A stretch of 33,367 bases of DNA from Filomicrobium sp. Its GTDB lineage: Bacteria; Pseudomonadota; Alphaproteobacteria; Rhizobiales; Hyphomicrobiaceae. The notes under the pieces were generated by a model, which did no database searches, was not told the DNA's origin, and was given only the letters and a program-made list of their open reading frames with translations. Made by a program: the position numbers and the translations under genes. This document shows, piece after piece, positions 3,480 through 32,711 of this stretch (its first letter is position 1; each line of letters starts with the position of its first letter). The stretch covers positions 1 through 33,367 of the forward strand of contig NZGY01000022.1 in assembly GCA_002689605.1 (NCBI GenBank). Reading direction: 5' to 3'.

Positions 3480-4241
3480 ATGGCCATGTCGTCGAAGTTC
3501 ATCAGGATCTTTGGACTATTAGCCAGCCTTCTATTGGCGCTTACATCGCTGAACTCAGCCTTAGCCAAGGAAGCTGTAGATGTTGAACTCGTCCTTCTGT
3601 CCGACGCATCAAACTCCATTGACAACGCTGAGATCAAGTTCCAACGGCAAGGCTATGCTACGGCCATTACGCATCCAAATGTCCTCGCTGCCATTAGGAA
3701 GGGCGGCCTCGGCAAGATCGCTGTAACATTTATCGAGTGGGCTGATGCTGACAATCAAGATACCGTGGTGCCCTGGATGGTGATTAAGGACAAACAATCC
3801 GCTGAAGCTTTCGCATAAGCATTACTTGCGCGAGATCGCAAAGCTTATGGCAGCAATGCTATTGGCGCCGCCCTTACTCATGCACACGCTCAGATTGATA
3901 CCAACAAATATGAAGGCCACCGCAAGTTTATAGATCTATCGGGCGACAGCGCGAACAACTGGCATGGGATCCCAATATCCGTGGCACGTGACAAGGCCGT
4001 GAAGGCAGGCATCATCATAAACGGGCTTGCTATACTCTGCCGTTCTGAAAATTGTGGCGGCCGACCAGTTGACTACAATCTCGAACAGGCTTTCGCACAA
4101 CAGATCATCGGTGGCCCCAGAAGTTTTGTTGTCACTGTCGATAGTCCCGCCCGCTTTGCTCAGGCAGTGAGAAGCAAACTTATTCTGGAGCTGGCTGCCT
4201 TGCCCTCTGCGGTCTCCTCCGACAACTTGTTTCGCCGATAA
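3480..4241 (+). pseudogene. DUF1194 (vWA-like, secreted) protein interrupted by an in-frame TAA at 3816-3818
   Basis: Signal-peptide-like N-terminus, then VDVELVLLSDASNSIDNAEIKFQRQGYATAI...AEAFA*ALLARDRKAYGSNAIGAALTHAHAQIDTNKYEGHRKFIDLSGDSANNWHGIPISVARDKAVKAGIIINGLAILCRSENCGGRPVDYNLEQAFAQQIIGGPRSFVVT. The same frame continues across the stop. Confidence 0.85.
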
Positions 4242-5845: not shown

Positions 5846-7804
5846 TTAGGTACCTGCCGGGTTCGTCTGTCTCGAGCCGCACTGAGCTTCACCGGCAACC
5901 AGGCGCCCCAAGTCGGTAACGCCGCTGTTCACAGAACCTTCTCGTAATTCGTGGTAAAGCCCATCAGCAGGTATCGTGCCGTAGTCAAATATAACCTGCC
6001 CCGCGCTCAGTTCAGTCAGCTCCCCGGTGAGCTCGGTCTGGAGTACAGCTGATAGCTTGTTGCCATCTCTGCGAACCTCTTTGAGTTGTTCTTCAAATCG
6101 CGGTGAAATTTTGCTCTGATGGATCCAGCGCCGCCATACAACGCGCTCCGCATATGCTTGCTCGGTTGCTAAGCTTTCATCGATTGTGGCGAACTGGACT
6201 GACGCGCCTTTGTTCCAACAGTATTGCGCGGCAGTCAGAGCTGCATGTCGCCCAGTACCATCGACAACAAGTACATCACCGCTGGGTGGCGCGTTGCCGC
6301 TCAAGACATCCCAGACGCTTGTGATGTTTGCAGCACCTTGAAGCCAATCGATGTTCGGCGTGCCACCGGTTGCTACGATGACGACATCGGGGTTCCGCTC
6401 GTGGATATCAGCAGTCTCGGCGAAATGATTCAACCGCAGCTCGACACCTAGCCGATCAAGTTCAGAAAGGCGCCAATCGCTAATCGCGACGATGTCTTTT
6501 CGCCAATCAGCTTCGGATGCTAGCAAAACCTGCCCCCCGGCACGCGCAGCTGCCTCAAAGACAACAACATCATGACCACGTTCACCACAGACGCGTGCTG
6601 CCTCCAATCCTGCGGGGCCTGCTCCAACGACAACAACTTTCCGTACATTGGATGCCGGTTGGATGACTTGACGCAAAGTGTTTTCATGACCTGTTGCCGG
6701 GTTGTGCAAGCAGGCTGGACGAAGTTCGCTCATGCAGTGGGTAAAGCCGACACACGGCCGAATTCTCTCTTCTTCGCCTGCTGCAATTTTTGCAACGAGA
6801 TGGGGATCGGCAATTTGTGCGCGGGTCATTCCGACAAGGTCGATTAGACCTTCCCGGACGGCATGGCGCGCGGTTGCGATGTCGGTTATGCGGGCGGCAT
6901 GGAAGACTGGTAGATTGATCTTTTCCTTAAACGCTGCGGCTTTCTCTAACCATGGTCCGATTGGTGAGGCCATGCCGGGCATGTTCTCCATTGCTAAACC
7001 AATCTGCGTGTCCATGCGTCCGTACACGGCATTGAAGAAATCCAAAGTGCCGGAAGACTCAAATATCTTTGCGATCTAGACGCATTCATCAAAACTCAGA
7101 CCGGCATCATGCCCTTCGTCGACTACGAAGCGGAAACCGACAAGGAAATCCTCACCGACTGCCTTGCGGATAGCCTCGTAAACTTCAAGTCCGAACCGAC
7201 ATCGGTTCTCGAGTGAACCGCCGTAAGCATCGGTTCTTCGATTGGTTGCTGGAGAGAGGAATTGTCCTATCAAGTGGGCGCCGGCAAGTGTTTCTATGCC
7301 ATCGAGACCGCCGTCCTTGCAGCGCTTAGCTGCAGCTGCGAAAGCTGTAATGACACGCTGAATGTCGGCATGATCAATTTCTTTAGGAATGCTTCGGTGA
7401 AGTGTCTCTCGAATGACCGATGGTGCAATCGTCGGTAGCATCGCTCCCTTATTGCTTTCACCGCGTCGACCCAAATGTGTGATCTGACACATAATGGCAG
7501 CGCCCTGATCGTGGACCCTGCGCGACAACGCTTGCAGGTGTGGAACGACTTCATCCACGCCGACGTTGAGTTGCTGAAATACAGATGGGGAATCTATATC
7601 GACATTGGAGGAGCCACCAAACATGATCAGCCCGATTCCTTCGCGCGCTTTTTCTTCCTGATAACGTTGGTAGCGATCCTTAGGCATGCCCCCCTCTTCC
7701 AGTCCGCAGGCATGACTTGTACTCATGATGCGGTTGCGCAGTTGCACATGTCTTATCTGAAATGGCTACAGTAATGGATCAGCGGAGACGACTGTATCGT
7801 TCAT
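5846..7804 (-). pseudogene. Old-yellow-enzyme/TMADH-type FAD/FMN oxidoreductase (N-methylproline demethylase-like) with two in-frame TAG codons (7766-7768 and 7076-7078)
   Basis: Minus-strand frame from ATG at 7804: MNDTVVSADPLL*PFQIRHVQLRNRIMSTSHACGLEEGGMPKDRYQRYQEEKA...LSFDECV*IAKIFESSGTLDFFNAVYGRMDTQIG...CVGFTHCMSELRPACLHNPATG...VVVVGAGPAGLEAARVCGERGHDVVVFEA. All three pieces share one frame. Confidence 0.9.
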
Positions 7805-14624: not shown

Positions 14625-16022
14625 TCAGGCAATAGCAACAGGCTCCAGTGTTTTCAGCATCCACCGCGCGAGCGATGTCATTCTAGCATCCTCGTGTTTC
14701 TGACCAATGAGCTGCACACCAACCGGCAAGCCATCAACGGCAAGAATAGGCACGTTTACGACAGGTGCAAATAGCATCGAACTTGGATAGTTGAAAACTG
14801 CATTTCCGGTCGGTCGCGCCGCCCGTGGCTCGCCCGGTTTGTCTCCTGCCCAAATCGGTGCCGGCCCGGGACATGATAATGAAATCATTGCATCCGCTTT
14901 GCGTGCCACCTGTCCATGCACTGCTTGTGCCTTTGTCCGTTCCAACAAACGCGCCTGATAGTCCGCCGGCGTCAACGCCTCCGCCTTCTCGAGCGTTGCC
15001 ATCGCCCGCGCACTCAAACCACCACCTTTTTCCTCTACAATATTGCGTTGATACCATCGGTTCTCCCAACCAGTGATATCCGCGCAAATTGCTGTCGCTT
15101 CGCTGATCGCTTGCTCGATTAGTTCCACCTCCGGATCATTGCGACGGTCCAGCAGCTCAATACCAGCGGCGACCAATTGCTCTCGGAAAGCCGCAAACGC
15201 TTGCTTGCTCTTTTCGTCCAGAGCTCCCCATCCTTCGGTTTCGAGAACAATGAGTCGTTGAGGCTTTATAGGAAGCGGTGCTGCAAGCGGACCACTCAGA
15301 GCCATACAGCCACGGTCTCCACCAGCGCGCCTCGCGATCTCAATTGATGCCTGCCACATGTCTTCAATGCATCCAGCGTGAACGCCATGCGTGCTCATAC
15401 TGGTGGCCATTCGCTCTCCACGATTGATGGCCCCTTGAGTTGGCTTCAATGACACGTTGCCACAGAAACCAGACGGCCGAATAATTGATCCACCAACTTG
15501 GCTGCCAATTGCTGCGGGCATCATATGGGCTGCGACCGCGGCTGCTGAACCAGAAGATGATCCACCAGGCGTCCGCGCTTGATCAAACGGATTGGTTGTC
15601 GGGCCAGGATGAGCGCCGCCCAACTCCGCTGTGACCGTCTTGCCGAAGATCACCGCACCTGCTTGTCGCAATGCCCAAACGGCCGCGTTATCACGCTTAG
15701 GAAAGTTTCCTTTGAGTGCCTCGCAATTCATCTCGGTAGGCATCTCTCGGGTTTCAAGAAGATCTTTGATCCCAATGGGCATGCCATCAATGCTCGATAA
15801 AGGATCGCCATCCTTATAGCGCTTGGTACTAGCATCTGCGGCAGCACGCGCGGTTTCGCGATTGAGATTTGCAAAGGCTTGAACGACTGGCTCTCGTTCA
15901 TCGATTGTCGCAAGACATCTCTCTAGATAGTCTCTTGGCGTATCAGCCCCCTCTCGGAAGCTCGCCACGGCATCATGGAATGTCAGCTGCTTGAATGTGC
16001 GAGGATCATAAGTGCCAGGCAT
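14625..16022 (-). CDS. Amidase (amidase signature family)
   Basis: GIKDLLETREMPTEMNC, TPGGSSSGSAAAVAAHMMPAAIGSQVGGSIIRPSGFCGNVSLKPT. Confidence 0.93.
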   Translation of the reverse strand: MPGTYDPRTFKQLTFHDAVASFREGADTPRDYLERCLATIDEREPVVQAFANLNRETARAAADASTKRYKDGDPLSSIDGMPIGIKDLLETREMPTEMNCEALKGNFPKRDNAAVWALRQAGAVIFGKTVTAELGGAHPGPTTNPFDQARTPGGSSSGSAAAVAAHMMPAAIGSQVGGSIIRPSGFCGNVSLKPTQGAINRGERMATSMSTHGVHAGCIEDMWQASIEIARRAGGDRGCMALSGPLAAPLPIKPQRLIVLETEGWGALDEKSKQAFAAFREQLVAAGIELLDRRNDPEVELIEQAISEATAICADITGWENRWYQRNIVEEKGGGLSARAMATLEKAEALTPADYQARLLERTKAQAVHGQVARKADAMISLSCPGPAPIWAGDKPGEPRAARPTGNAVFNYPSSMLFAPVVNVPILAVDGLPVGVQLIGQKHEDARMTSLARWMLKTLEPVAIA

Positions 16023-16040: not shown

Positions 16041-17411
16041 TTAAGATACCTGTTCCAGATTTGGTTGGGGAAATTGCCCACGAGCCTCTTCGAAGGCCTT
16101 ACCGATCCGAAGTGCCAACGGATCATCAAAATGCCGCACAACTATTTGCAATGCTGTCGGCAGCCCCTTGGCGGTCAGATTTATTGGCACCGATAATGCG
16201 GCAAGTTCAAGGTAATTGACGAACCGGGTTAGGATCGACAGTGGCATAATGCTTTCGTCTGCGTCTGAAATGGGAATAGCTGCCATTGGTATCGTCGGCA
16301 GAATGATAGCCTCAATGTTATCGATAACGGCCTCAAAGTCTCGGATGGACGTCTCACGAGCGCGTCGGATGCGGACGAGATCTGCTGCTGTTATTGACTT
16401 GCCGTATCTAAATCTATTGCGGTTTGGCTCGCCAAGTTTCGATTCCGGATCCTCGACCAAATCGGCATAGGTTGCATAAGACTCTGACGACGACACCTGA
16501 CCACACAGACGCTGGTATGCCTTGTAGTCCAGAGGCAATTTAGCTTGCGAAATGGTGGCGCCAGCTTCTCGCAGGCGATTGACAGCAAGTTCGAACGCAG
16601 CGGCAACTTCATCGGTGAGAAAGGGCATTTCAGAAAGTTCCAAGCGCGCCAACCGCACACCTTGAATGCCTCGATCAAGTTGCCGTATGGGGCAAGGGAA
16701 ACTTCTACCAACAGTCGTTGGATCGCTGGGATCTGCACCCTGCATAGCAGCCAGCATGTGTGCAGCAAGTTCCACATTGCTTGTCAGAGGCCCGACAGTG
16801 TCCAGCGTCTCGGATAAAGGCGTGACGCCTGTACGGCTCACTAAACCAATCGATGACTTGTGTCCGACACAACCGCATACAGCCGCTGGTATCCGCACGG
16901 AGCCACCAGTGTCAGTACCCAACCCAGCGCTTGCCAGTCCCGATCCGACCAGCACACCCGTTCCACTTGATGAACCTCCTGGGACATGTGGAACGTCCAT
17001 ACTCCAAGGATTGACCGGCGTTCCAACTGTCTCATTGGTTCCCCAACTGCCGATTGCGAACTCAACTGTATTGGCTTTGGCAATAGGAATTGCACCTACG
17101 GCCCGCAAACCTGCTACAGCAGGTGCGTCCTTCAATGCGGGTGTATTGTCCGCCTGGGTTAGCGATCCGGATTTGGTTGGAACCCCGGCAACGTCAATTA
17201 TGTCTTTGACCACGAACGGCAAGCCATGGAGTGGTCTCAGCGTGCTGCCACAAGACGCTAACTGATCGCGATGCTGCGCATCTGCTCTCGCCTGTTCGTC
17301 AAACCGCGCTGCGACCGCATTGAGAGAATCCTGGTGCCTATTCAATCCTTCCAGCCCAGCATTCACGGCCTCTTGCGCATGTCCCGGCTTGGGCACCCCA
17401 TTCACTGACAT
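16041..17411 (-). CDS. Amidase (amidase signature family)
   Basis: LPFVVKDIIDVAGVPTKSGS, VPGGSSSGTGVLVGSGLASAGLGTDTGGSVRIPAAVCGCVGHKSS. Confidence 0.93.
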   Translation of the reverse strand: MSVNGVPKPGHAQEAVNAGLEGLNRHQDSLNAVAARFDEQARADAQHRDQLASCGSTLRPLHGLPFVVKDIIDVAGVPTKSGSLTQADNTPALKDAPAVAGLRAVGAIPIAKANTVEFAIGSWGTNETVGTPVNPWSMDVPHVPGGSSSGTGVLVGSGLASAGLGTDTGGSVRIPAAVCGCVGHKSSIGLVSRTGVTPLSETLDTVGPLTSNVELAAHMLAAMQGADPSDPTTVGRSFPCPIRQLDRGIQGVRLARLELSEMPFLTDEVAAAFELAVNRLREAGATISQAKLPLDYKAYQRLCGQVSSSESYATYADLVEDPESKLGEPNRNRFRYGKSITAADLVRIRRARETSIRDFEAVIDNIEAIILPTIPMAAIPISDADESIMPLSILTRFVNYLELAALSVPINLTAKGLPTALQIVVRHFDDPLALRIGKAFEEARGQFPQPNLEQVS

Positions 17412-17441: not shown

Positions 17442-18083
17442 CTAGTAGATCGTTTCCTTGAGCCGCTTTGGATAATTGCAGTCATATTCATCTCCATCAA
17501 ACTCCTGGCTGAGCGTGGAAATGATCTGGCCGGTCGTCGGCAGCTCCGACCTAACGATCTGACTTTCAGCCTGCCACAATTTTGACCGCACGAGCGCCTT
17601 CGGACACTGAAAATAGATAGTGTCAACTTTGACAAGAATGACTGTCGCTGGGACTTTACCCTGCATTTCAAAGGATGCACGCAACTCCGGTTCGGTAACG
17701 ATGTAGCCGCGCCCATTAATACGTATAGTTTCACCAATGCCGGGGATCAGGAAAAGCAGCGAGGCGCGCGGATCAACCACAAGATTGCGCAAGTTATCGA
17801 TACGATTATTGCCGCGTCTATCAGGTATCGCCACCGTATGCTCGTCGAGTACGCCCGCGAAACCTGGAGGATCCCCACGAGGTGAACAATCAACACCGTC
17901 TGGCCCAACAGTTGCCAACACGACGAACGGCGATTTCTCTATGAACGCCCGGTAATGATCAGAGATGTAGCCAATTTCCTTGACCAGTGAGGCCGGATTA
18001 GCTGGGCCATACGTCTCTTCAAGCTCGGTGAGAGAGGAGATTGTATAGTCTGCGTAGGCGCCTAATTCAGATTTGCTCTTCAT
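17442..18083 (-). CDS. Pyridoxamine 5'-phosphate oxidase-like FMN-binding flavoprotein
   Basis: FIEKSPFVVLATVGPDGVDCSPRGDPPGFAGVLDEHTVAIPDRRGNNRIDNLRNLVVDPRASLLFLIPGIGETIRINGRGYI. Confidence 0.9.
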   Translation of the reverse strand: MKSKSELGAYADYTISSLTELEETYGPANPASLVKEIGYISDHYRAFIEKSPFVVLATVGPDGVDCSPRGDPPGFAGVLDEHTVAIPDRRGNNRIDNLRNLVVDPRASLLFLIPGIGETIRINGRGYIVTEPELRASFEMQGKVPATVILVKVDTIYFQCPKALVRSKLWQAESQIVRSELPTTGQIISTLSQEFDGDEYDCNYPKRLKETIY

Positions 18084-18138: not shown

Positions 18139-19191
18139 CTACTTGTTTCTCTCTGGACCATAGTTCATTTTTCGGAACCAGGTCATGTACTCGACATAAG
18201 TTATGGGATCATACTTCGGAGGATTGTCGGGTGTCGTACACGTAGGCAAGCAACTCATTTGGTGTTCCGCCCAACAGTCAAAGAAAAATGGCAAAGCAAA
18301 TCTCTCCTCACCTGTTCGGTTAACGACCCTGTGCGGAGTTGCAAGAAAGCGATCGTTGGTCCAGCGGCGCAGCATGTCTCCACCGTTGACAAGGAAAGCA
18401 CCATCGTTGACAGGAGCATCGATCCACTTTCCACTTGGACCACGTACGGACAGGCCAGGCACCTTGTTGGGTGCAAGCAATGTCATAAAGCTGGTGTCGG
18501 TATGGGGCGCCAAACCAAACTCGTTATCCTCGACAACCTCCTGCGGCGGATAATGAGACATTCGCAGTTTGTACATCGGCTTGGCAAATGCTTCGTCGAA
18601 GTAGCTCTCCGGCAGATCCAGCGCCAAGGCATAGAGCGGCACAAGTTTCAACGCCAGCGCCTCCAATGCATTCATGTAGTTAAGACACGTCTCACGAAAC
18701 CCCGGCAGATCTGATGGCCACTTGTTGGGTGTGCGGAAAGCCTTTCCGGCAAGCACATCAGGGTCGTCTGGGGTCAGGTCCCGTGCAATGAAGAATGCTT
18801 CGTTCACATTGGGTTTGTTGTTCTGATTGAGCTGAGAGTGACGCGTCGTCCCGCCCCGCATCGGCAAATAGCCAATGTTGTACTCGTTGAGTTTAAGTTT
18901 TAGCTTGTCTTCTAGCGGTTGGGCGTGGAAACGCGCAGCGGCCGCGAAAGCCTCGTCGATCAATTCTTGCGGCACGCCGTGATTGGTAATGAAATAGAAT
19001 CCGATATTCTCAAAAGCATGGCGTAATTCCACGGCAGCCTGCTCCTTTGCTCCGGGTTCGCCAGTGAGATATGGGCCCAAGTCAATGATCGGAATTTCAT
19101 CGACGGCATCCTTACGTAAAGGTGCCAGGGATGGGGCTGGACTTGCCATTCGTTCCTCCAATCTGATGACGTGATCAGCCAACCTCTTCAA
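18139..19191 (-). CDS. 2-oxoglutarate/Fe(II)-dependent oxygenase (isopenicillin N synthase-like)
   Basis: EIPIIDLGPYL, FYFITNHGVPQELIDEAF, HTDTSFMTLL (HxD), ATPHRVVNRTGEERFALPFFFD. Confidence 0.92.
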   Translation of the reverse strand: MKRLADHVIRLEERMASPAPSLAPLRKDAVDEIPIIDLGPYLTGEPGAKEQAAVELRHAFENIGFYFITNHGVPQELIDEAFAAAARFHAQPLEDKLKLKLNEYNIGYLPMRGGTTRHSQLNQNNKPNVNEAFFIARDLTPDDPDVLAGKAFRTPNKWPSDLPGFRETCLNYMNALEALALKLVPLYALALDLPESYFDEAFAKPMYKLRMSHYPPQEVVEDNEFGLAPHTDTSFMTLLAPNKVPGLSVRGPSGKWIDAPVNDGAFLVNGGDMLRRWTNDRFLATPHRVVNRTGEERFALPFFFDCWAEHQMSCLPTCTTPDNPPKYDPITYVEYMTWFRKMNYGPERNK

Positions 19192-20458
19192 TCAGCCAAC
19201 CAGTCATTATTGCTGCAGCTTCCAAGAAATCATCTATCTCCATGGCTTCGTGTGGATTGTGGCTTCCATTCTCATTGCGCACGAACAGCATGGCCGTCGG
19301 CACACCTGCAGCTGTGAATGTTGCTGCATCGTGCGAGGCCGGACTGGCAAGCGGCATTGTCGAAATATCCAATTTCTCCGCGCTGCGTGTCAATGCTGCG
19401 TAGACATCAGGATGGGATGGTGCAACAGGGGCGCTTGCACGCGCTCCTAGATCGATCTTCACGCCGCGTGTTTCTTCAATCGACTTCACGCGTTCGATCA
19501 ATTCATTTTCAAGTTCATCCAAATGCGTTGCATCATAAGCTCGCACATCGAGGCTCAGTGACATTTCACCTGGAACGATTGTGAGTGCATGCGCATCCAG
19601 ATTGGTGTGAAAGCGGCCGATCGTGAACGCCATCGGCTTGCCGGCAGCGTCATTCGCCTTCCACATTTCATCCAGGCCGAGCGCAAAGTCACTTGCCGCC
19701 AAAGCGGCATCGCGGCGGAAACGACGTGGTAGTCCAACGTGGGCGTACTCGCCTTGTATGTGAATATTGGGATAACGGAAGTTGCCTGGTACGCCAGTGC
19801 CAATAGCGGCCGCCACTCCTGCTTCGATCAACTGCGGAGCCTGTTCAATATGGATCTCGACAAACGCGCGAATGTCCCCTGCCTTCAGCCAGGACACGCC
19901 AGCACCGACCTTCTCTACGTCGGCACCACATTCTGCCATATGTTCCGCGAGAGTGCGCCCGGTATCGACGCGTTTTGCATCGAGAGCTCCATCGGGCAAC
20001 ATCCCGAAGGCTGTACGGCTACCAATGTATGAAACCTGAAACCAAACGCTTTCCTCTGCGCGAATAGCCATTGTCGTCACGTCACAGGATGGGGTCATCC
20101 CTAAGTGTTGTAAGACCCGTTGCGCAACAAGACCTCCGATGACACCGGCTGCACCATCGAAATTCCCTCCACGTTTGACTGAATCGAGATGCGAGCCCAT
20201 CATAATCTTTGGTGCTTCGGGGCTTGCTCCCGGAAGTGTCATGTAGAGATTGGCTCCGTGATCATAGACGAGGTCCAAGCCCATCTCGCGAGCCCGCCCT
20301 TCAATGACACGATAGCCAAATTGCTCACCTGCTCCAAAGGTGTCTCGCGTGACACCTTCGACGTCTTTGCTCCCCTCACGCAACTCGTCGAATAGGTCCG
20401 AGACAAACTTCTTCTGAGCTCGAACTGCTGACGCAATCTCTGTTGGGGCAATCGGCAT
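19175..20458 (-). CDS. M20-family Zn-dependent hydrolase (N-carbamoyl-L-amino acid hydrolase / allantoate amidohydrolase type)
   Basis: MMGSHLDSVKRGGNFDGAAGVIGGL, RAEESVWFQVSYIGSRTAFG, FVEIHIEQAPQLIEAG, SPASHDAATFTAAGVPTAMLFVRNENGSHNPHE. Confidence 0.92.
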   Translation of the reverse strand: MPIAPTEIASAVRAQKKFVSDLFDELREGSKDVEGVTRDTFGAGEQFGYRVIEGRAREMGLDLVYDHGANLYMTLPGASPEAPKIMMGSHLDSVKRGGNFDGAAGVIGGLVAQRVLQHLGMTPSCDVTTMAIRAEESVWFQVSYIGSRTAFGMLPDGALDAKRVDTGRTLAEHMAECGADVEKVGAGVSWLKAGDIRAFVEIHIEQAPQLIEAGVAAAIGTGVPGNFRYPNIHIQGEYAHVGLPRRFRRDAALAASDFALGLDEMWKANDAAGKPMAFTIGRFHTNLDAHALTIVPGEMSLSLDVRAYDATHLDELENELIERVKSIEETRGVKIDLGARASAPVAPSHPDVYAALTRSAEKLDISTMPLASPASHDAATFTAAGVPTAMLFVRNENGSHNPHEAMEIDDFLEAAAIMTGWLIEEVG

Positions 20459-20469
20459 TCCGCCTTCTC

Positions 20470-21495
20470 CTAGTATTCTGCGAAGATACGGCGCAACTCA
20501 TTGACATTGGTTGTCTTGCTGAGCGCCACCATCAATAGTACTCGTGCCTTTTGCGGGTTGAGTGTATCAGCTGAGATAAATCCGCGTTCATTCAGTTTTT
20601 GCCGGTTAGGGACCCGTCCTGATCCAGCCCGGTTAGACTGGACAACTGTCACGCCTTGTTTGATAAATTTGTCAAAGGCTTCGTCTTGCTGGGGCGTCAG
20701 GAGACCAGGCGCAAAACCGGCTGAAACCAGCCCCTTGGCTCCTGCTGCCACATAAGCTTCGATAGCAACAGCGTCACTTCCCCCATAGCATGGCACGACG
20801 TCTACCCGCGGCAGTTCCGTGACATCCACCATGTCAAACTCGGTGTCTGGCATTCGACGCCTCAGCGGCGCACGATAATAATGCACCCCGTCTCCATCGA
20901 CTTGACCGAGAACACCGAAGTCAGGTGAGCGGAACGTTTGCATCCTAAGCGTTGACGTCTTGGTGACATCTCGTGCGGCCTGGATTTCGTCGTTAAGCAT
21001 CAAAAGAGCGCCCATGCCACGAGACTCGGGATCGGCTGCAGTCCGCGCAGCATTGAGGAGATTGATTGCAGCATCTGTTGAAATGCCGGAGGCTGGTCTC
21101 TGTGCTCCGACGACGACAACTGGTTGTTCGATCTTTAAAGTAAGGCTCAAAAAATAGACAGTTTCCTCAGCTGAAGCTGTCCCGTGCGTCACGACAAAAC
21201 CTGTGATCGATGGGTCGTCCGCCGCGGCCTTCGTTATTGTCTTATTGAGTTCCAACCATTCCTTGGGACCAATTTGCGTGCTTCCAATCGCTTTGAAGCG
21301 GATGGGTACGGGCTCGACAAATTCTTTCACAAGATCGAACTTCTCGATTAGCTGATCAACCTCGAGTTTTGAGCCGCTATCTGGGTAGTCGACGAGATCA
21401 AGGGCATCGCGTCCAATTGATGAAATCGTGCCGCCTGTTCCAACAAATGCGATCTTTGGCTTGTTCCCTGCCATCCTACTACTCCGTAAATTCAT
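20470..21495 (-). CDS. Asparaginase/glutaminase-fold amidohydrolase with non-canonical second active-site motif
   Basis: FVGTGGTISSIGRDALDLVDY, VTHGTASAEETVYFLSLTL, NDEIQAARDVTKTSTLRMQTFRSPDFGVLG, SNRAGSGRV. Confidence 0.9.
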   Translation of the reverse strand: MNLRSSRMAGNKPKIAFVGTGGTISSIGRDALDLVDYPDSGSKLEVDQLIEKFDLVKEFVEPVPIRFKAIGSTQIGPKEWLELNKTITKAAADDPSITGFVVTHGTASAEETVYFLSLTLKIEQPVVVVGAQRPASGISTDAAINLLNAARTAADPESRGMGALLMLNDEIQAARDVTKTSTLRMQTFRSPDFGVLGQVDGDGVHYYRAPLRRRMPDTEFDMVDVTELPRVDVVPCYGGSDAVAIEAYVAAGAKGLVSAGFAPGLLTPQQDEAFDKFIKQGVTVVQSNRAGSGRVPNRQKLNERGFISADTLNPQKARVLLMVALSKTTNVNELRRIFAEY

Positions 21496-21507: not shown

Positions 21508-22521
21508 TTAGGTCTGAGACTGCTCCTCGGCAAACTCACCGACCTCGATTTCAATCGCACGCAGCAAGGCATTGATCAACGCTTCACTTAAGTTACGTCC
21601 GATGAAGACAATTCTTGTACGATGGTCGTCTGACGGCCAATCGTCTAACCACGCCAAGGGATGAAACACATGCTGCACACCATGAACAACAGCTGGCTGG
21701 TTTGGTGTTTCATCTATGCAAATAAGCCCCTTCATACGAAGTAATCCTTCGCCACAGTGATCGGCCAGGGCCTCCAGAAACAAGGTCAACGCAACAGCTG
21801 CTATGGGCCGATCACGGACGATCGCGAATGTCTGGATCGAACCATTCGCGTGACTATGTTCAGAAGTACTAGAAAATGCGATCTCCGTGAGATCATTCAA
21901 TCTTGCGGCCTGCTCCGTCGATGGATCGGAACCAAACACAACTTCTGGCGCTAGCGCCCCATGGCTCGCCACGATCAACCGAGTTGACGGGTTCAATTCC
22001 AGTATGGCTGCTGATAGCTCATCATCGTGCTGTTGAAGTTGATCACTCTTGGTCAAGACTAGTCTATCGGCGACTGCCACCTGTTTTGCAGCTTCTGGTT
22101 CGCGTGCAGTTGTCGTCAAACCGTGGACTGCATCGACAGTCGTAACGACGCGTTGCAGTTCGAATTTCTGAGCGGCTGTCTCATCGACCATAAGCCCCTG
22201 GAGAATTGGGATCGGATCAGCCAGACCGCTGGTTTCAATCACAACACGTTTGAAGGGAGCTATTTCACCCGCCTCCCTGCGGGTCAGGAGATTATCTAGT
22301 GTCTCGACAAGATCGCCGCGCATCTTGCAACATAAACATCCTGTCTTGAGTGTAACGAGATCCTCATCACTGGTTTCGATCAAATCATGATCAAGCCCGA
22401 TCTCACCAAATTCGTTGATGATCACCGCAGTATCACGGAAGTCATCATGGGCTAGTAGCTTTTTCAAAATCGTCGTCTTGCCACTACCTAAATAGCCAGT
22501 GATTACGGAAACCGGGATCAT
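21508..22521 (-). CDS. CobW/COG0523 family GTP-binding protein (putative metallochaperone)
   Basis: VITGYLGSGKTTILKKLLAH (Walker A), KTGCLCCKMRGDLVETL (CxCC), IETSGLADPIPI, TKSD. Confidence 0.93.
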   Translation of the reverse strand: MIPVSVITGYLGSGKTTILKKLLAHDDFRDTAVIINEFGEIGLDHDLIETSDEDLVTLKTGCLCCKMRGDLVETLDNLLTRREAGEIAPFKRVVIETSGLADPIPILQGLMVDETAAQKFELQRVVTTVDAVHGLTTTAREPEAAKQVAVADRLVLTKSDQLQQHDDELSAAILELNPSTRLIVASHGALAPEVVFGSDPSTEQAARLNDLTEIAFSSTSEHSHANGSIQTFAIVRDRPIAAVALTLFLEALADHCGEGLLRMKGLICIDETPNQPAVVHGVQHVFHPLAWLDDWPSDDHRTRIVFIGRNLSEALINALLRAIEIEVGEFAEEQSQT

Positions 22522-22826
22522 GCCGAATACCCCGGAGATGGCGCTATTGTAAGTTGATAGGGTTGGTAACTAGGTGCCAGGGTCTGGCGCACAACACGCA
22601 AAACACCACTTATAGACGCGGCCGTCCGTTTGCGTTCGTTGATTTCAACAACCCAGCGAAATGGCAGATTGTCCGGTGCGCGGTAGATCTTTAGTCGTGC
22701 AGTTCCGTCAGCTTCAATGTGAATGTGATCATCTACGCTACTTTGGTCGATAGCAACTTCCAATGCCCAGCAATCGATTGACGCCTCCAGCAAGTCCCGT
22801 AATGCGTCAACCAAAACATCGCTCAT
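22518..22826 (-). CDS. 102-aa hypothetical protein between hydantoinase and CobW genes
   Basis: ORF overlaps its neighbours at both ends by ATGA-type junctions (22823-22826 and 22518-22521), consistent with translational coupling. Confidence 0.75.
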   Translation of the reverse strand: MSDVLVDALRDLLEASIDCWALEVAIDQSSVDDHIHIEADGTARLKIYRAPDNLPFRWVVEINERKRTAASISGVLRVVRQTLAPSYQPYQLTIAPSPGYSA

Positions 22827-24274
22827 AGCGCTGGACCTGAGAGAATATCGGCGGGAATCTTACGTGTGAGAAGCTGACCATCATTTGTATCACCCGAGAA
22901 GCTCTTTCCCTCGACGACAACTTTGCCACGTAAAATAGTCATTTCGGGCCAAGCGAAGATGTCATGGCCTTCCCAAGGCGTGTAGTCAGTTTCGTGAAGC
23001 TCGGACGCTGTGACTTTGCCACGGCGGCTGGGGTCAAGAACTGTAATGTCTGCGTCGCTACCAGCTGCGATCGCTCCTTTCCGTGGATATAACCCCATGA
23101 CTTTGGCTGCGTTAGTGGAGACCAAATCAACGTACTGACTGAGTGAATACCCCCGTCGATTGACCATCTCGGTGTACATAACGGCGAGGCGCGGCTCTAC
23201 GCCAGAGTTACCGCCCGTCGTATCGTCAATCCGGTTGCCAAGCGTCTTTTCTTTCAATGTACAGCACAATTCGTCCGTCGCGACGCAATTGATGTCACCC
23301 GTCAGCGTACCATCCCACAGGGCTTTTTGATCTTCCGCTGATTTCAGTGATGGGTAGGTGTGATAGATTTGACCGTTTGGCCGCTTATAGTCTTCAGCCG
23401 TGTAAAGCATATATTGATGCAGCGTCTCGCCGTAAATCGGCAGCCCTTTAGCACGCGCTTCAGAGATGGCTTTGACACCGGTCGCGGCACTGACATGCAT
23501 CATGTAGAGTGCCGTACCAGGTACGTTTTCTGCAAGACGGAGGATGCGACGGAAGCTCAAGTCTTCTGACAGAGCATTATGGGCCTCGTTTAGATGCTCG
23601 AAGCCAACGCGCCCCTCACGGATGAGCTTGTCGTACATATGCATGACGATGTCATGGTCTTCAGCATGGATGACGCCAAGTCCACCTACTTCTGCCAGAA
23701 CTTTGAAGGCTTCCCAGATATCTCCGAAGTCAATCATCCGTCCGGTTCGACCCGGAAGGATGTTGGTTGTGAAGATTTTCAGCGTTGGATGCCCGGCCTG
23801 GATTGCCTCGGCCAACTGTCCAGTAAATGTGTGCGGCGGCTCGCTATGCAACATGATGTGATAAGCATAGTCGCAATAGCTCCGTCCCTTGAAGTCTTTC
23901 TCACGCGCCTCGATTGCCTCCAGCGCTGTTTGTTCTTCGCGCCAATAGGCGAAGTCGATCAGCGTTGTCGTGCCACCATAGAGCGCAGCCTTCCCAACCT
24001 GGTCCGGCCCTGCGGTTATCATCGTTTCACCATCTGGCTTGATCCAGGGATGATGCATGTGAACATGAGGATCAATGCCACCTGGCATGACGATCTTGCC
24101 ACTTGCATCGACGGTTCGCTTGGCGTCTCCATCGCTAAGTGTGTTGGGTGCTGCGACTGCTGATATTTTCTCGCCTTTCACGGCGATATCATAATTGCCG
24201 ACGTCCTGAGGGGTTACGACCTCGCCACCGCGAATAATCATATCCAGCATGAGTCGTCCTCCTATTCGGTTCAT
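22823..24274 (-). CDS. hydA: Dihydropyrimidinase/hydantoinase-type cyclic amidohydrolase
   Basis: VMPGGIDPHVHMHHP (HxH), HPTLKIFTTN (candidate carboxylated Lys), VIHAEDHDI, YMMHVSAATG, NCVATDELCCT, plus C-terminal amidohydrolase pattern GAIAAGSDADITVLDPSRRG. Likely start 24274 or the internal ATG (MLDMIIRGGEVVTPQDV) near 24250. Confidence 0.93.
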   Translation of the reverse strand: MNRIGGRLMLDMIIRGGEVVTPQDVGNYDIAVKGEKISAVAAPNTLSDGDAKRTVDASGKIVMPGGIDPHVHMHHPWIKPDGETMITAGPDQVGKAALYGGTTTLIDFAYWREEQTALEAIEAREKDFKGRSYCDYAYHIMLHSEPPHTFTGQLAEAIQAGHPTLKIFTTNILPGRTGRMIDFGDIWEAFKVLAEVGGLGVIHAEDHDIVMHMYDKLIREGRVGFEHLNEAHNALSEDLSFRRILRLAENVPGTALYMMHVSAATGVKAISEARAKGLPIYGETLHQYMLYTAEDYKRPNGQIYHTYPSLKSAEDQKALWDGTLTGDINCVATDELCCTLKEKTLGNRIDDTTGGNSGVEPRLAVMYTEMVNRRGYSLSQYVDLVSTNAAKVMGLYPRKGAIAAGSDADITVLDPSRRGKVTASELHETDYTPWEGHDIFAWPEMTILRGKVVVEGKSFSGDTNDGQLLTRKIPADILSGPAL

Positions 24275-24492: not shown

Positions 24493-25833
24493 GTGAGTCA
24501 TAATGAACCTTCACGTCGACTGCATCTCGGTGCCTTTATGCGACCGATCAGTATTCATACGGGTGCATGGTGATATCCTGGCGCCTACACAGATGCGAAC
24601 TTCAACTTCGAGCACATTGTGCGGTTCGCCCAAAAGCTGGAGCAAGGCAAGTTCGACGCCTTCTTCATGGCTGATCATCTAGCCCTGCTCAACAAGCCAA
24701 AGGAGGCGCTCCAGCGCAGTGCCACGGTCACGTCTTTCGAGCCAATGACTTTGCTATCCGCACTGGCGGCCGTCACCAAGAATATCGGTCTGATCACAAC
24801 TGGGTCTACAACTTACGATGCGCCATATCATGTCGCTCGGCGGTTTGCATCGCTGGATCACATCAGCGGTGGCCGGGCCGCTTGGAATGTTGTCACAACG
24901 TCGAACCCAGATGCCTCGTTGAATTTTGGATTTGATGAGCAAATGGAGCACGACGAGCGGTACCGCCGAGCTCGTGAATTCTATGATGTCGTAACCGGAC
25001 TATGGGACAGTTTTGATGATGATGCCTTTATCCGTGATACTGACTCAGGCATCTACACCGACTTGGAAAAGTTGCACACGTTGAATCATCACGGCGAATA
25101 CTTTGAGGTACGTGGTCCTCTCAATATTGGGCGCCCTATCCAGGGATGGCCCGTCATTGTTCAAGCAGGCGCGTCGGAAGCCGGTCGCCAACTCGCGGCC
25201 GAGGCCGCAGAAGCGATATTCGCCTCGGTTCGAACGCTGAAAGACGGACAGGCCTTCTATTCGGATATTAAGAGCCGCATGGTGAAGGTTGGCCGAAACC
25301 CCGATCACATGAAAGTACTTCCTGGCTGTCTCGTCGTTGTCGGGGATACGGATGAGGAAGCGCACCAGAAACGCCTTCTGCTTGACAGCAAAGTGCACTA
25401 CGAGAGTGCAATCGCGTCTCTATCAATTGCACTGGGAGTCGATGCCTCAAAATTCGATCCAGATGGCCCGTTGCCTAGTGACATTCCTCAAACTAATACG
25501 AGCCACAGCGGTCGCGAACGAGCAATCAATCTTGCTCGGGAAGAAAACCTGAGTGTCAGACAACTTACCGGTAGATTTGGTGGCTACTCCGGTCTGGCCA
25601 TGGTCGGCACAGCTCAAACCATTGCCGATCAAATGGAGGAGTGGTTGCTGGAGCGCGGTTGTGACGGCTTCAACATCATGTTTCCCTACCTACCAATGGG
25701 ACTTGATGACTTTGTTGATCAGGTGGTTCCGGAATTGCAGCACCGAGGCATTTTTAGAAAAGAATGTGAGGGTCAAACCTTAAGAGAGAATTTGGGATTG
25801 CCGCGGCCAGTCAGTCGTTATGCGGCGAGTTAA
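24493..25833 (+). pseudogene. LLM-class flavin-dependent monooxygenase (NtaA/SnaA/DszA-like) with in-frame TGA at 24571-24573
   Basis: From GTG 24493: MSHNEPSRRLHLGAFMRPISIHTGAW*YPGAYTDANFNFEHIVRFAQKLEQGKFDAFFMADHLALLNKPKEALQRSATVTSFEPMTLLSALAAVTKNIGLITTGSTTYDAPYHVARRFASLDHISGGRAAWNVVTTSNPDASLNFG. Homology-like sequence continues on both sides of the stop in one frame. Confidence 0.88.
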
Positions 25834-28890: not shown

Positions 28891-28981
28891 CATGTAGCAC
28901 GTCCAATGAGCTAAGCATGGTTCCAATTGCATGGAACTCGCACTAGTGTCGACGCCAAGTTCTAGTCATTGGCTGAGGCTC

Positions 28982-31057
28982 ATGCAAAATCCTGTTCGTG
29001 TCGCCGTTGACATCGGCGGCACTTTCACCGACCTGCAAATCCATGATGCGCGCACTGGCGACGGCCATGCCTTCAAAACTCCATCAACTCCTCACGATCC
29101 GTCCGTTGGATTGATTGAAGGCCTCACTGGCGCGTCCCAGAGATATGGGTTTCAACTCGGCGAGATTGGTCTCATCTTGCACGGTTCGACCATCGCGACG
29201 AATGCCGTTCTCGAGCGCAAACTGCCTAAGGGAGCACTGCTGACAACAGCCGGGTTTCGAGATGTGCTAGAGATAGGGCGCCATATGCGCAGGAACGTAT
29301 ATGCGCTGAAGGCGGAGCCTCGTCCACTCCTCATACCCAGACATCTCCGATTTGAAGTTATAGAACGCGTTCGTGCGGATGGCACGCTCGACACGCCATT
29401 AGACCTTGGACAGCTGGAAGAGCTTGTGCATCAACTCCAAGATGCAAATGTCGATGCTCTCGCGATAGCTTTCCTGCACGCTTACCGCAATCCGGATCAT
29501 GAGCTGCGCGCGCGTGAGTTTCTACAGAACGCATCACCAAACCTTACAATCTCGACTTCCCACGAAGTGAGTCCCGAAGTCCGTGAGTTTGAACGGACAT
29601 CAACAACGGTTCTAAACGCGCTCCTCAAGCCTGTCATTTCCAGCTACTTGAGTTCCGTCGCCCAGCGCCTGGCTGCCGCTGGCGTCAAGGCTACGCTCTA
29701 TCTTGTTCAGTCAAACGGGGGAGTTGCTTCGCCTGATGAAGCTGCCAATTTGCCTGCGAAGCTGCTGCTGTCCGGACCGGCCGGTGGTGCCATGGCCCTC
29801 GGTCAATTGGCACAACAGCATAGCCTGACTGAATTGGTCGGCCTGGACATGGGAGGCACAAGTTCAGATGTTTCCGTTGTCATGAATGGCGTGATCGGCG
29901 AAACACAAGAATCAAGCATTGACGATTTACCCGTTCGCCTCCCGATGATTGATATTCGAACTGTTGGCGCTGGCGGTGGCAGCATAGCTCGTGCCGAAAC
30001 CGGAGGGTTGAGGGTTGGCCCTCAGAGTGCGGGTGCCTATCCGGGACCTGTTTGCTACGACCGCGGTGGACAGGAGCCAACGGTGACTGACGGCAATGCG
30101 GCCCTTGGACGGATCATTCCCGATAGTTTCCTTGGCGGCGGCATGTCGCTTAAGGTTGCAGAGGCATTACAGTCCTGCGAAACGATGATAGCCAAGCCGC
30201 TCAATATGCAGCCGACCGCCGCCGCCGAGGGCATCGTCAATGTCGCCACCGCACATATGGCTAGTGCCATCCGTCTGTCGCTATTTGAAAAGGGTGTTGA
30301 TCCAGTTGACTTTGTCCTAGCTCCGTTCGGTGGCGCAGCCGGCCTCCATGCCTGCGCGGTTGCGGACGAACTTGGCATCGACCGGATCATCTTTCCCTCC
30401 GATGCATCAACGTTGTCGGCGCGCGGTATGTTGTTTGCGGATCTTCGCCACGACCTGTCCCGTTCAGAATTGCTGATTGCTGCTGATGAGAACCTTCTCC
30501 GTCTAACAGAGCTGGTTACTCAGCTTAGAAACGAAGCGCAGGCCTTGCTGCAACGTGATGGCATTGCCGAGGAGGAGCAGCGGATTGAAATCGCGTTCGA
30601 TATGCGCTATCGCGGTCAAGCCTACGAGATTACGACGCCCTGCCTAACGATTAATGGACAATCGACGGCAGCGCCACTCGTCGATCTAAGCGACGTCCTC
30701 GCAAAGTTTCACACCCTTCACGAGCAGCGCTTTGCCCATAGCTCCCCGAACGAGGCTGTTGAAATTGTGACTGTTAGAGCAGCTGCAATTGGCAAGCTTG
30801 AGAAGCCCCAACTTACTTTCGCGGTCCAGGAGCGCTCTCGGGCGTCAGGTGGTGACAAACATCGAAGCGTTTGGATTGAAGGACAGCAACGAGACATCGC
30901 TTGTATTCGTCGCGATCAGGTTGTCGGCGACATAAAGATCAAAGGCCCAGCATTGATCGAAGAGGACTACACTATTCTGTTTATCCATTATGGCTGGGAG
31001 CTCACGGGGCTGCCAAATGGCGATCTCAACTGCGTCCGCTCAGGCAAGGAGCAGTGA
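28982..31057 (+). CDS. hyuA: Hydantoinase/oxoprolinase subunit A (HyuA-type, ATP-dependent)
   Basis: RVAVDIGGTFTDLQIHD, LILHGSTIATNAVLERKLPKGALLTTAGFRDVLEIGR, LDMGGTSSDVSVV, VGAGGGSIA, GPQSAGAYPGPVCYDRGGQEPTVTD. Confidence 0.95.
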   Translation: MQNPVRVAVDIGGTFTDLQIHDARTGDGHAFKTPSTPHDPSVGLIEGLTGASQRYGFQLGEIGLILHGSTIATNAVLERKLPKGALLTTAGFRDVLEIGRHMRRNVYALKAEPRPLLIPRHLRFEVIERVRADGTLDTPLDLGQLEELVHQLQDANVDALAIAFLHAYRNPDHELRAREFLQNASPNLTISTSHEVSPEVREFERTSTTVLNALLKPVISSYLSSVAQRLAAAGVKATLYLVQSNGGVASPDEAANLPAKLLLSGPAGGAMALGQLAQQHSLTELVGLDMGGTSSDVSVVMNGVIGETQESSIDDLPVRLPMIDIRTVGAGGGSIARAETGGLRVGPQSAGAYPGPVCYDRGGQEPTVTDGNAALGRIIPDSFLGGGMSLKVAEALQSCETMIAKPLNMQPTAAAEGIVNVATAHMASAIRLSLFEKGVDPVDFVLAPFGGAAGLHACAVADELGIDRIIFPSDASTLSARGMLFADLRHDLSRSELLIAADENLLRLTELVTQLRNEAQALLQRDGIAEEEQRIEIAFDMRYRGQAYEITTPCLTINGQSTAAPLVDLSDVLAKFHTLHEQRFAHSSPNEAVEIVTVRAAAIGKLEKPQLTFAVQERSRASGGDKHRSVWIEGQQRDIACIRRDQVVGDIKIKGPALIEEDYTILFIHYGWELTGLPNGDLNCVRSGKEQ

Positions 31058-31058
31058 C

Positions 31059-32711
31059 ATGACCGATTTGAAACTCGATCCGGCTCGCCTTGAGGTTATC
31101 CGCAATGCCTTGATTGCTGGTGCCGAGGAAATGAATCTATCGATCTGGCGAACGGCACGCTCAACAGTTGTACGCGAGACCCTCGACTATTCTACAGCAT
31201 TATTCGACGGCAAAGGTCAGTCTGTTGCGCAGTCTACGAGAATACCAATTCACCTCAATAGTATGTCTGTCTGCCTGGACGAAATTGTTGCCAACCACTT
31301 GCCGTTGGATGATTGGCAGCCGGGCGATGTCATCCTAACGAACGATCCCTACTGCGGGGGCCAGCACCTTCCCGATTTCGTTGCATTCCAACCGATATTT
31401 TCTGGTGATCGACGCGTTGCGATTTCTGCATCAATTGTCCATCACGTCGATGTCGGCGGTGGTGCGCCTGGCAGCTACTATGCGGGCGCACGCGAGGTCC
31501 ACCAGGAAGGGTTACGCCTACCGCCGGTTCGTCTTGTTGAGCAAGGCCAGATCAATGAAACAGTCATTCGCATTATTCGGCAGAACAGCCGAGAGCCTGA
31601 CAAAATTGCTGGTGATGTCTACGCGCAGATTGCCTGCTTGAAGGTCGGTGCGAACGCCATCGAACGACTGATCAAGCGTTACAATGCCAACGCAGTTGTT
31701 GCTGCGATGGATGCGGTGCTCGACCAATCAGAAGCCGAGATGCGCGCTGCCATTGGTGAGCTGCCCGATGGTGAATACTCGTTCCAAGACTTCGTGGATG
31801 ATGATGGGCAAGAGGCGATCGGGCTTGAGATTGATGCCCATGTCACCATCAAAGGAGAGACTTGCGTCGTTGACCTATCTCGATCTGCTGATCAGGCACC
31901 GGGGCCAGTTAACTGCACATTGAATATGGCAAAGTCAGGGGTCTACTGCGCTCTGCTCTGCGCAGCTGGTGGACGAGCGATGGCGAATTCAGGTGCATAC
32001 CGTCCTATCGAGGTTGTTGCGCGACCTGGCTCTATAGTCAGCTGCCTTGCCCCCGCACCTGTTGCTAACCGGATGGCGACAGGGCACAGGGTTGTGACTA
32101 CCGTGCTCGGTGCTATCGCAAAGGCTTCGCCCAGCACTATCCCGGCAGCTTACTACGGTGTGTCCTATGTGGCGGCGCTATCGGCGCCAGATCCGGTTGT
32201 GGAAGGTGAACGGCGGGTCTACTTCGAGGTCGAAGTTGGCGGATGGGGTGCGCACCCTGAGGCTGACGGTGCCGATGGTTTTTCCGCCGGGTTCCACAAT
32301 CTCGCGAATTCGCCAATTGAGATGTGCGAGACGCTGTTTCCCATTACATTTACTGAGTACGCGTTTATCCCTGATAGTGGGGGACGGGGTCAGTTTCGTG
32401 GCGGTTTAGGGCTGGCGCGCGAATGGCGATTGGATGCCGACTGGGGTGTGCTCTCGGGGAATTTTGAGCGCTTTCGCTATCCACCGTATGGATTGAATGG
32501 TGGAGAGCCTGGTTCGCTCGGGCGCTTCCAACTCACCCGGAATGGCGAAGCTACCGTTCTTCCATCAAAGATATCTGGCGTCGACTTGCAACTTGGCGAC
32601 GTAGTTCGACTGGATACTTCTGGTGGCGGTGGATGGGGTCCCCCTGGAGAGAGAGATCCTGCAAAGACGGACCATGATATAAAGGGCGGCTACATCAGTT
32701 CATCGGATTAG
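31059..32711 (+). CDS. hyuB: Hydantoinase/oxoprolinase subunit B (HyuB-type)
   Basis: LDPARLEVIRNALIAGAEEMNLSIWRTARSTVVRETLDYSTALFDGKGQSVAQSTRIPIHL, DVILTNDPYCGGQHLPDF, SGGGGWGPP. Starts 1 nt after the hyuA stop. Confidence 0.95.
   Translation: MTDLKLDPARLEVIRNALIAGAEEMNLSIWRTARSTVVRETLDYSTALFDGKGQSVAQSTRIPIHLNSMSVCLDEIVANHLPLDDWQPGDVILTNDPYCGGQHLPDFVAFQPIFSGDRRVAISASIVHHVDVGGGAPGSYYAGAREVHQEGLRLPPVRLVEQGQINETVIRIIRQNSREPDKIAGDVYAQIACLKVGANAIERLIKRYNANAVVAAMDAVLDQSEAEMRAAIGELPDGEYSFQDFVDDDGQEAIGLEIDAHVTIKGETCVVDLSRSADQAPGPVNCTLNMAKSGVYCALLCAAGGRAMANSGAYRPIEVVARPGSIVSCLAPAPVANRMATGHRVVTTVLGAIAKASPSTIPAAYYGVSYVAALSAPDPVVEGERRVYFEVEVGGWGAHPEADGADGFSAGFHNLANSPIEMCETLFPITFTEYAFIPDSGGRGQFRGGLGLAREWRLDADWGVLSGNFERFRYPPYGLNGGEPGSLGRFQLTRNGEATVLPSKISGVDLQLGDVVRLDTSGGGGWGPPGERDPAKTDHDIKGGYISSSD

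Follow-up and report, generated by a model that had tools for sequence, protein, structure and literature searches.

An asparaginase-fold protein with a remodelled amino-group pocket, encoded in a hydantoinase-CobW operon of Filomicrobium sp.

In L-asparaginases, Asp90 (numbering of the E. coli type-II enzyme AnsB, here EcAII) is invariant and critical for the binding of canonical substrates, the alpha-carboxylate of the substrate is held by Ser58, and Glu283 destabilises negative ligands (PMC6667453). Asp90 is also a member of the Thr-Lys-Asp catalytic triad (PMC8948990; PMC6667453), so that its loss concerns catalysis as well as binding. FraE, the fructose-asparagine asparaginase, has the type-II fold with an altered Asn248/Glu283 region and is annotated for an N-substituted asparagine, but it keeps the HGTDT motif around Asp90 and is reported to be periplasmic (PMC4072780). 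The asparaginase-like gene of the succinamopine plasmid pTiEU6 (L131, 8971-9984), situated in the succinamopine catabolic region and adjoining HyuA and HyuB (hydantoinase/oxoprolinase A and B), has HGTGT at this position. The available part of its published account describes the product as acting on released asparagine and cites no assay; the enzyme may act on N-substituted asparagine or its lactam instead of free asparagine. The half-amidase of cyclic imide metabolism in Blastobacter is reportedly a 48-kDa monomer inhibited by thiol reagents, and for this reason probably belongs to another family than the protein described here, which it resembles only in proposed role, as the second step after a dihydropyrimidinase-like imidase.

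The window, i.e., the whole stretch of 33,367 nucleotides that was analysed, contains on its minus strand an open reading frame with a stop-free translation that includes VTHGTASAEET. According to the original prediction, this protein has HGTAS in place of HGTDT and retains the flanking Thr and the distant Lys in its TKTST context. Both statements are borne out by alignment with EcAII, in which the identities of the key EcAII residues were confirmed by script: the change from Asp to Ala falls at Asp90, and K179 corresponds to Lys162. The relevant positions are the following.

20470..21495 (-): asparaginase-fold enzyme with remodelled amino-group pocket, 341 amino acids, no obvious signal peptide (Pfam, alignment, model)
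21427..21429 (-): codon of Thr23, the presumed nucleophile (EcAII Thr12; alignment)
21172..21186 (-): HGTAS motif, residues 104-108 (EcAII HGTDT, 87-91; Asp90 to Ala107; translation and alignment)
20959..20961 (-): codon of Lys179 (EcAII Lys162; alignment)

The protein scores 167.7 bits with PF00710 (gathering score 22.5) and 103.7 bits with PF17763 (gathering score 34.6), which places both of its domains in the asparaginase superfamily, and 291.6 bits with the type-II L-asparaginase model TIGR00520, which is under the curated cut-off of 314.3. Its closest solved relatives are type-II L-asparaginases, and the same group gives the top structural matches (TMq about 0.9) of a model predicted from 32 clade sequences with pLDDT 90.1 and pTM 0.91, so that a type-II asparaginase fold of the predicted structure is well supported. 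GatD and type-I asparaginase belong to the same superfamily, and both identities were rejected, GatD at 109.1 bits on NF003217 against a curated cut-off of 310 and type I with a model score far under its cut-off.

In common with the type-II enzymes (EcAII, Wolinella 1wsa, B. subtilis 9bad), the protein has the two-domain fold and retains the catalytic Thr12, Tyr25, Thr89 and Lys162 as well as Ser58. It differs from them in that Gln59, Asp90, Asn248 and Glu283, the contacts of the substrate amino group, are all replaced, with T-A-S aligned to Thr89-Asp90-Thr91, in having Gln at the Met115 position and an APG loop, and in the absence of an obvious signal peptide. These features were followed through a clade set of 97 sequences that included the best 80 named loci of public genomes and 16 sequences from the order of the host; the scan used conserved-peptide probes and retained the best 80 matches, and is thereby biased toward the clade. 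Asp90 is missing in all 97 (Ala in 88, Ser in 8, Cys in 1), the motif being HGTAT in 62, HGTAS in 26, HGTSS and HGTST in 4 each and HGTCT in 1, and since it is absent throughout, the HGTAS of the window cannot be put down to chance or to an error of sequencing. Thr12, Tyr25, Thr89 and Lys162 are conserved across the same set, and the carboxylate-binding Ser58 position (Ser72 in the window protein) is invariant. Together with Asp90, the clade has lost Gln59, Asn248 and Glu283, and the replacements are in many cases hydrophobic or basic. At the Glu283 position most sequences have Arg, Lys, Tyr or Ser, in a loop shortened by two residues. The GNG loop of EcAII has become APG, with Pro in 96 of the 97 sequences, and Gln occupies the Met115 position in 96 of them.

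As the pocket columns change together, the amino-group pocket of the clade looks, on the alignment, rebuilt and not damaged. The joint loss of Gln59, Asn248 and Glu283 beside an invariant Ser58 strengthens the earlier suggestion, read from the sequence, that the substrate may lack an alpha-amino group. The clade is a large bacterial branch of the asparaginase family that has given up the residues gripping the amino group and has kept its cutting machinery, and it probably acts on a different amide. Its lid loop carries conserved acids, D33 and often D36, which might substitute in part for Asp90.

HGTDT is retained in about 39 other asparaginase-family sequences sampled. In this wider set, where 6 of 40 extra sequences were unreadable in frame and some fragments were too short for all columns, neither the roughly 39 HGTDT sequences nor two QGTDT sequences have Pro in the loop at the APG position, and seven further HGTA or HGTG sequences do; no sequence of the set combines APG with the Asp. 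The pTiEU6 gene and an Arthrobacter plasmid gene with HGTNT are without Asp, yet keep a different loop, and two distant AGTNV sequences combine Asn with the loop Pro. The pTiEU6 protein, which shares with the window protein the lack of Asp90, is 40% identical to it and differs also in keeping Met115. A maximum-likelihood tree, built quickly from 118 sequences and with SH-aLRT support only, separates the clade from the HGTDT enzymes by a long branch (1.11, support 100); the long-branched plasmid sequences are less certainly placed. Its members are mainly Alphaproteobacteria (Acetobacteraceae, other Rhodospirillales, Reyranella and Rhizobiales), with a few metagenome-assembled genomes labelled Rokuibacteriota, Chloroflexi, Alcaligenaceae and Gammaproteobacteria, labels that may be wrong.

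The gene belongs to an intact operon of nine minus-strand genes, running from 24274 down to 14625 with intergenic gaps of -17 to +55 bp. Its other members are, in order of transcription:

22823..24274 (-): hydantoinase/dihydropyrimidinase family protein, gene 1 of the operon, metal-ligand motifs present (TIGR02033, 331.8 bits, under the cut-off of 393; solved hydantoinases)
22518..22826 (-): small ORF, 102 amino acids, no Pfam match; at other loci its relatives immediately precede cobW
21508..22521 (-): CobW/COG0523 GTPase with GCLCC (CXCC) motif, putative metallochaperone (Pfam; motif read in the sequence)
19175..20458 (-): M20 hydantoinase/carbamoylase-family amidase (TIGR01879, 240.7 bits, above the cut-off of 204)
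18139..19191 (-): 2OG/Fe(II) oxygenase (Pfam); in loci L099 and L105 a relative immediately precedes the asparaginase-like gene
17442..18083 (-): PPOX-type FMN flavoprotein (TIGR04025)
16041..17411 (-): amidase-signature enzyme (PF01425)
14625..16022 (-): amidase-signature enzyme (PF01425)

Judged by eye, the alignment of the hydantoinase with its solved counterparts extends through the metal-ligand motifs. The M20 gene starts 11 bp downstream of the asparaginase-like gene, and the nearest solved relative of its product is an N-carbamoyl-L-amino acid hydrolase. For COG0523 proteins there is a precedent as activator of an adjacent metalloenzyme, nitrile hydratase (PMC2770081). The small ORF of the window has counterparts in L084, L123, L061, L073, L080 and L096, where, as in the window, a protein of about 85-100 amino acids with no Pfam match is encoded immediately ahead of cobW and beside the hydantoinase. 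The AF2 model is alpha-beta (pLDDT 81.5), and a fold search against the PDB gave no significant match, the best being frataxin CyaY at E 0.11. Divergent from the operon (28931-32711, plus strand) lie a HyuA/HyuB (hydantoinase/oxoprolinase) pair, a class-III aminotransferase and an MFS transporter.

The link to a cyclic amidohydrolase, noticed at first in this one cluster, recurs elsewhere. In 9 of the best 80 named loci the asparaginase-like gene has, no more than 5 kb away, a hydantoinase at least 50% identical to that of the window; by the same distance limit, CobW is present in 11, an amidase-signature gene in 18 and an M20 relative in 3. Neighbours are under-counted here, since the window proteins served as probes and many of the contigs are short. 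All 9 hydantoinase-bearing loci also carry CobW, so that a hydantoinase-CobW-asparaginase module is present in 9 of the 80; M20 is absent from most of the other modules. The hydantoinase subfamily of the window occurs in 4 of 398 genomes of the order, the host's own counted. When each locus is given a chance of 1%, the probability of at least 9 in 80 is about 1e-7, a figure to be used as a guide only, since the 1% is a rough value and the loci are related to one another. The proposal that HGTA[ST] marks a hydantoinase-linked clade does not hold: most members are without an adjacent hydantoinase, and the linked ones require about five changes on the tree. Two genomes (L144, L145) have hydantoinase-CobW without an adjacent asparaginase-like gene and with amidase-signature genes flanking the pair, and in L143 an amidase-signature gene is nearby. 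This suggests that the step after ring opening is the hydrolysis of an amide, and that it can be performed by two unrelated folds.

The activity, the substrate class, the order of the steps and the role of CobW we infer as follows, with a probability of roughly 0.55. The window protein would be a cytosolic, Thr-dependent amidase that acts, after ring opening by the hydantoinase, on a carboxylate-bearing amide without free alpha-ammonium. Thr23, aided by Tyr37 (EcAII Tyr25), would attack the carboxamide in the usual two-step Thr mechanism via an acyl-enzyme, and Thr106 and Lys179 (EcAII Thr89 and Lys162) would assist the release of acid and ammonia. A carboxylate on the substrate, bound at Ser72, is proposed because the Ser58 position is invariant. 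The substrate would most likely be the ring-opened product of the neighbouring hydantoinase, which CobW and the small ORF are proposed to metallate; it could be a dicarboxylic-acid half-amide, succinamate-like, or an N-carbamoyl or otherwise N-blocked acid with a terminal carboxamide, from which the M20 enzyme could strip the carbamoyl group. We slightly prefer a half-amide to an N-carbamoyl or otherwise N-blocked asparagine, since the recurring core consists of hydantoinase, CobW and amide hydrolase and M20 occurs in few loci. The activity could be low, as Asp90 belongs also to the triad. With somewhat less confidence, at a little under even odds, the whole clade would be a widespread, unrecognised family of asparaginase-fold amidases that lack the triad Asp and act on carboxamides without a free alpha-amino group, with one branch that, together with hydantoinase, a CobW metallochaperone of its own and the new small protein, forms a pathway acting on cyclic imides or on rings of the hydantoin type.

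The main reading can be narrowed to N-alpha-blocked asparagine or glutamine, for instance N-carbamoyl-asparagine from a carboxamide-bearing hydantoin; elsewhere in the clade the substrates may be opine-like or acylated asparagines. The carbamoylase-family gene immediately downstream speaks for such a substrate, as does the pTiEU6 gene with its HGTGT motif and its hydantoinase A/B neighbours. The narrowing is nevertheless rather unlikely: M20 relatives accompany few of the 80 loci, and the HGTDT of FraE means that N-substitution in itself does not call for loss of Asp, bearing in mind that the amine of the FraE substrate can still be charged. Fructose-asparagine-type substrates are disfavoured by the same motif.

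That the protein is still the L-asparaginase or glutaminase of the cell, with altered kinetics, is improbable, as Asp90 is invariant and critical for the canonical substrates (PMC6667453) and the remaining amino-group contacts have all gone too; this must be set against the retained fold and main catalytic residues, a TIGR00520 score near the cut-off, and a host genome in which a search for three asparaginase families gave no further match. It is also highly improbable that the homologue is catalytically dead or regulatory. One residue of the Thr-Lys-Asp triad is indeed missing, and in-frame stops in several other genes of the window point to a genome that may be decaying, but the operon itself is intact, and the nucleophilic Thr, the Tyr, the second Thr and the Lys are conserved clade-wide.

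These stops are located at 24571 (LLM monooxygenase), 7076-7078 (NADH:flavin oxidoreductase) and 3816-3818 (DUF1194 gene), being TGA, TAG and TAA; similarly split genes occur on some other contigs of the host genome, and the stops reflect genome decay or assembly errors. The asparaginase-like gene was not found in 20 genomes of the same family, and the host assembly has 6.2% contamination; contamination by this contig is not favoured, its GC content of 0.53 and tetranucleotide distances resembling those of the other contigs.

Literature searches (asparaginase-fold half-amidase, maleamate/succinamate asparaginase homologue, aconitamide amidase) returned nothing useful, and neither a substrate for any clade member nor an asparaginase-fold enzyme in a ring-degradation pathway was found described in the literature searched. 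An enzyme of this fold would join such a pathway should its substrate prove to be a half-amide or an N-carbamoyl acid. A large natural clade without Asp90 permits a test of how specificity and catalysis are divided in a therapeutically used fold, and many alphaproteobacterial genes annotated as 'asparaginase' probably encode something else.

The clade may serve several pathways, since genes for transporters of the peptide or tricarboxylate type are close to other members. A Terrarubrum plasmid relative (55%) is found among rutA-like, isochorismatase, nitrilase-like, polysaccharide-deacetylase and flavin reductase genes, a context that resembles nitrogen-heterocycle catabolism. On the plasmid of Agrobacterium sp. 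33MFTa1.1 (L133, 8995-9993), an HGTGS relative stands among SIS-domain, PfkB, ROK and argininosuccinate-lyase-like genes, resembling the catabolism of sugar-amino acid (Amadori-type) compounds, and the HGTNT relative of Arthrobacter pLDW-10 (L136, 7019-8014) adjoins molybdenum hydroxylase and polysaccharide-deacetylase genes, in a setting resembling N-heterocycle catabolism.
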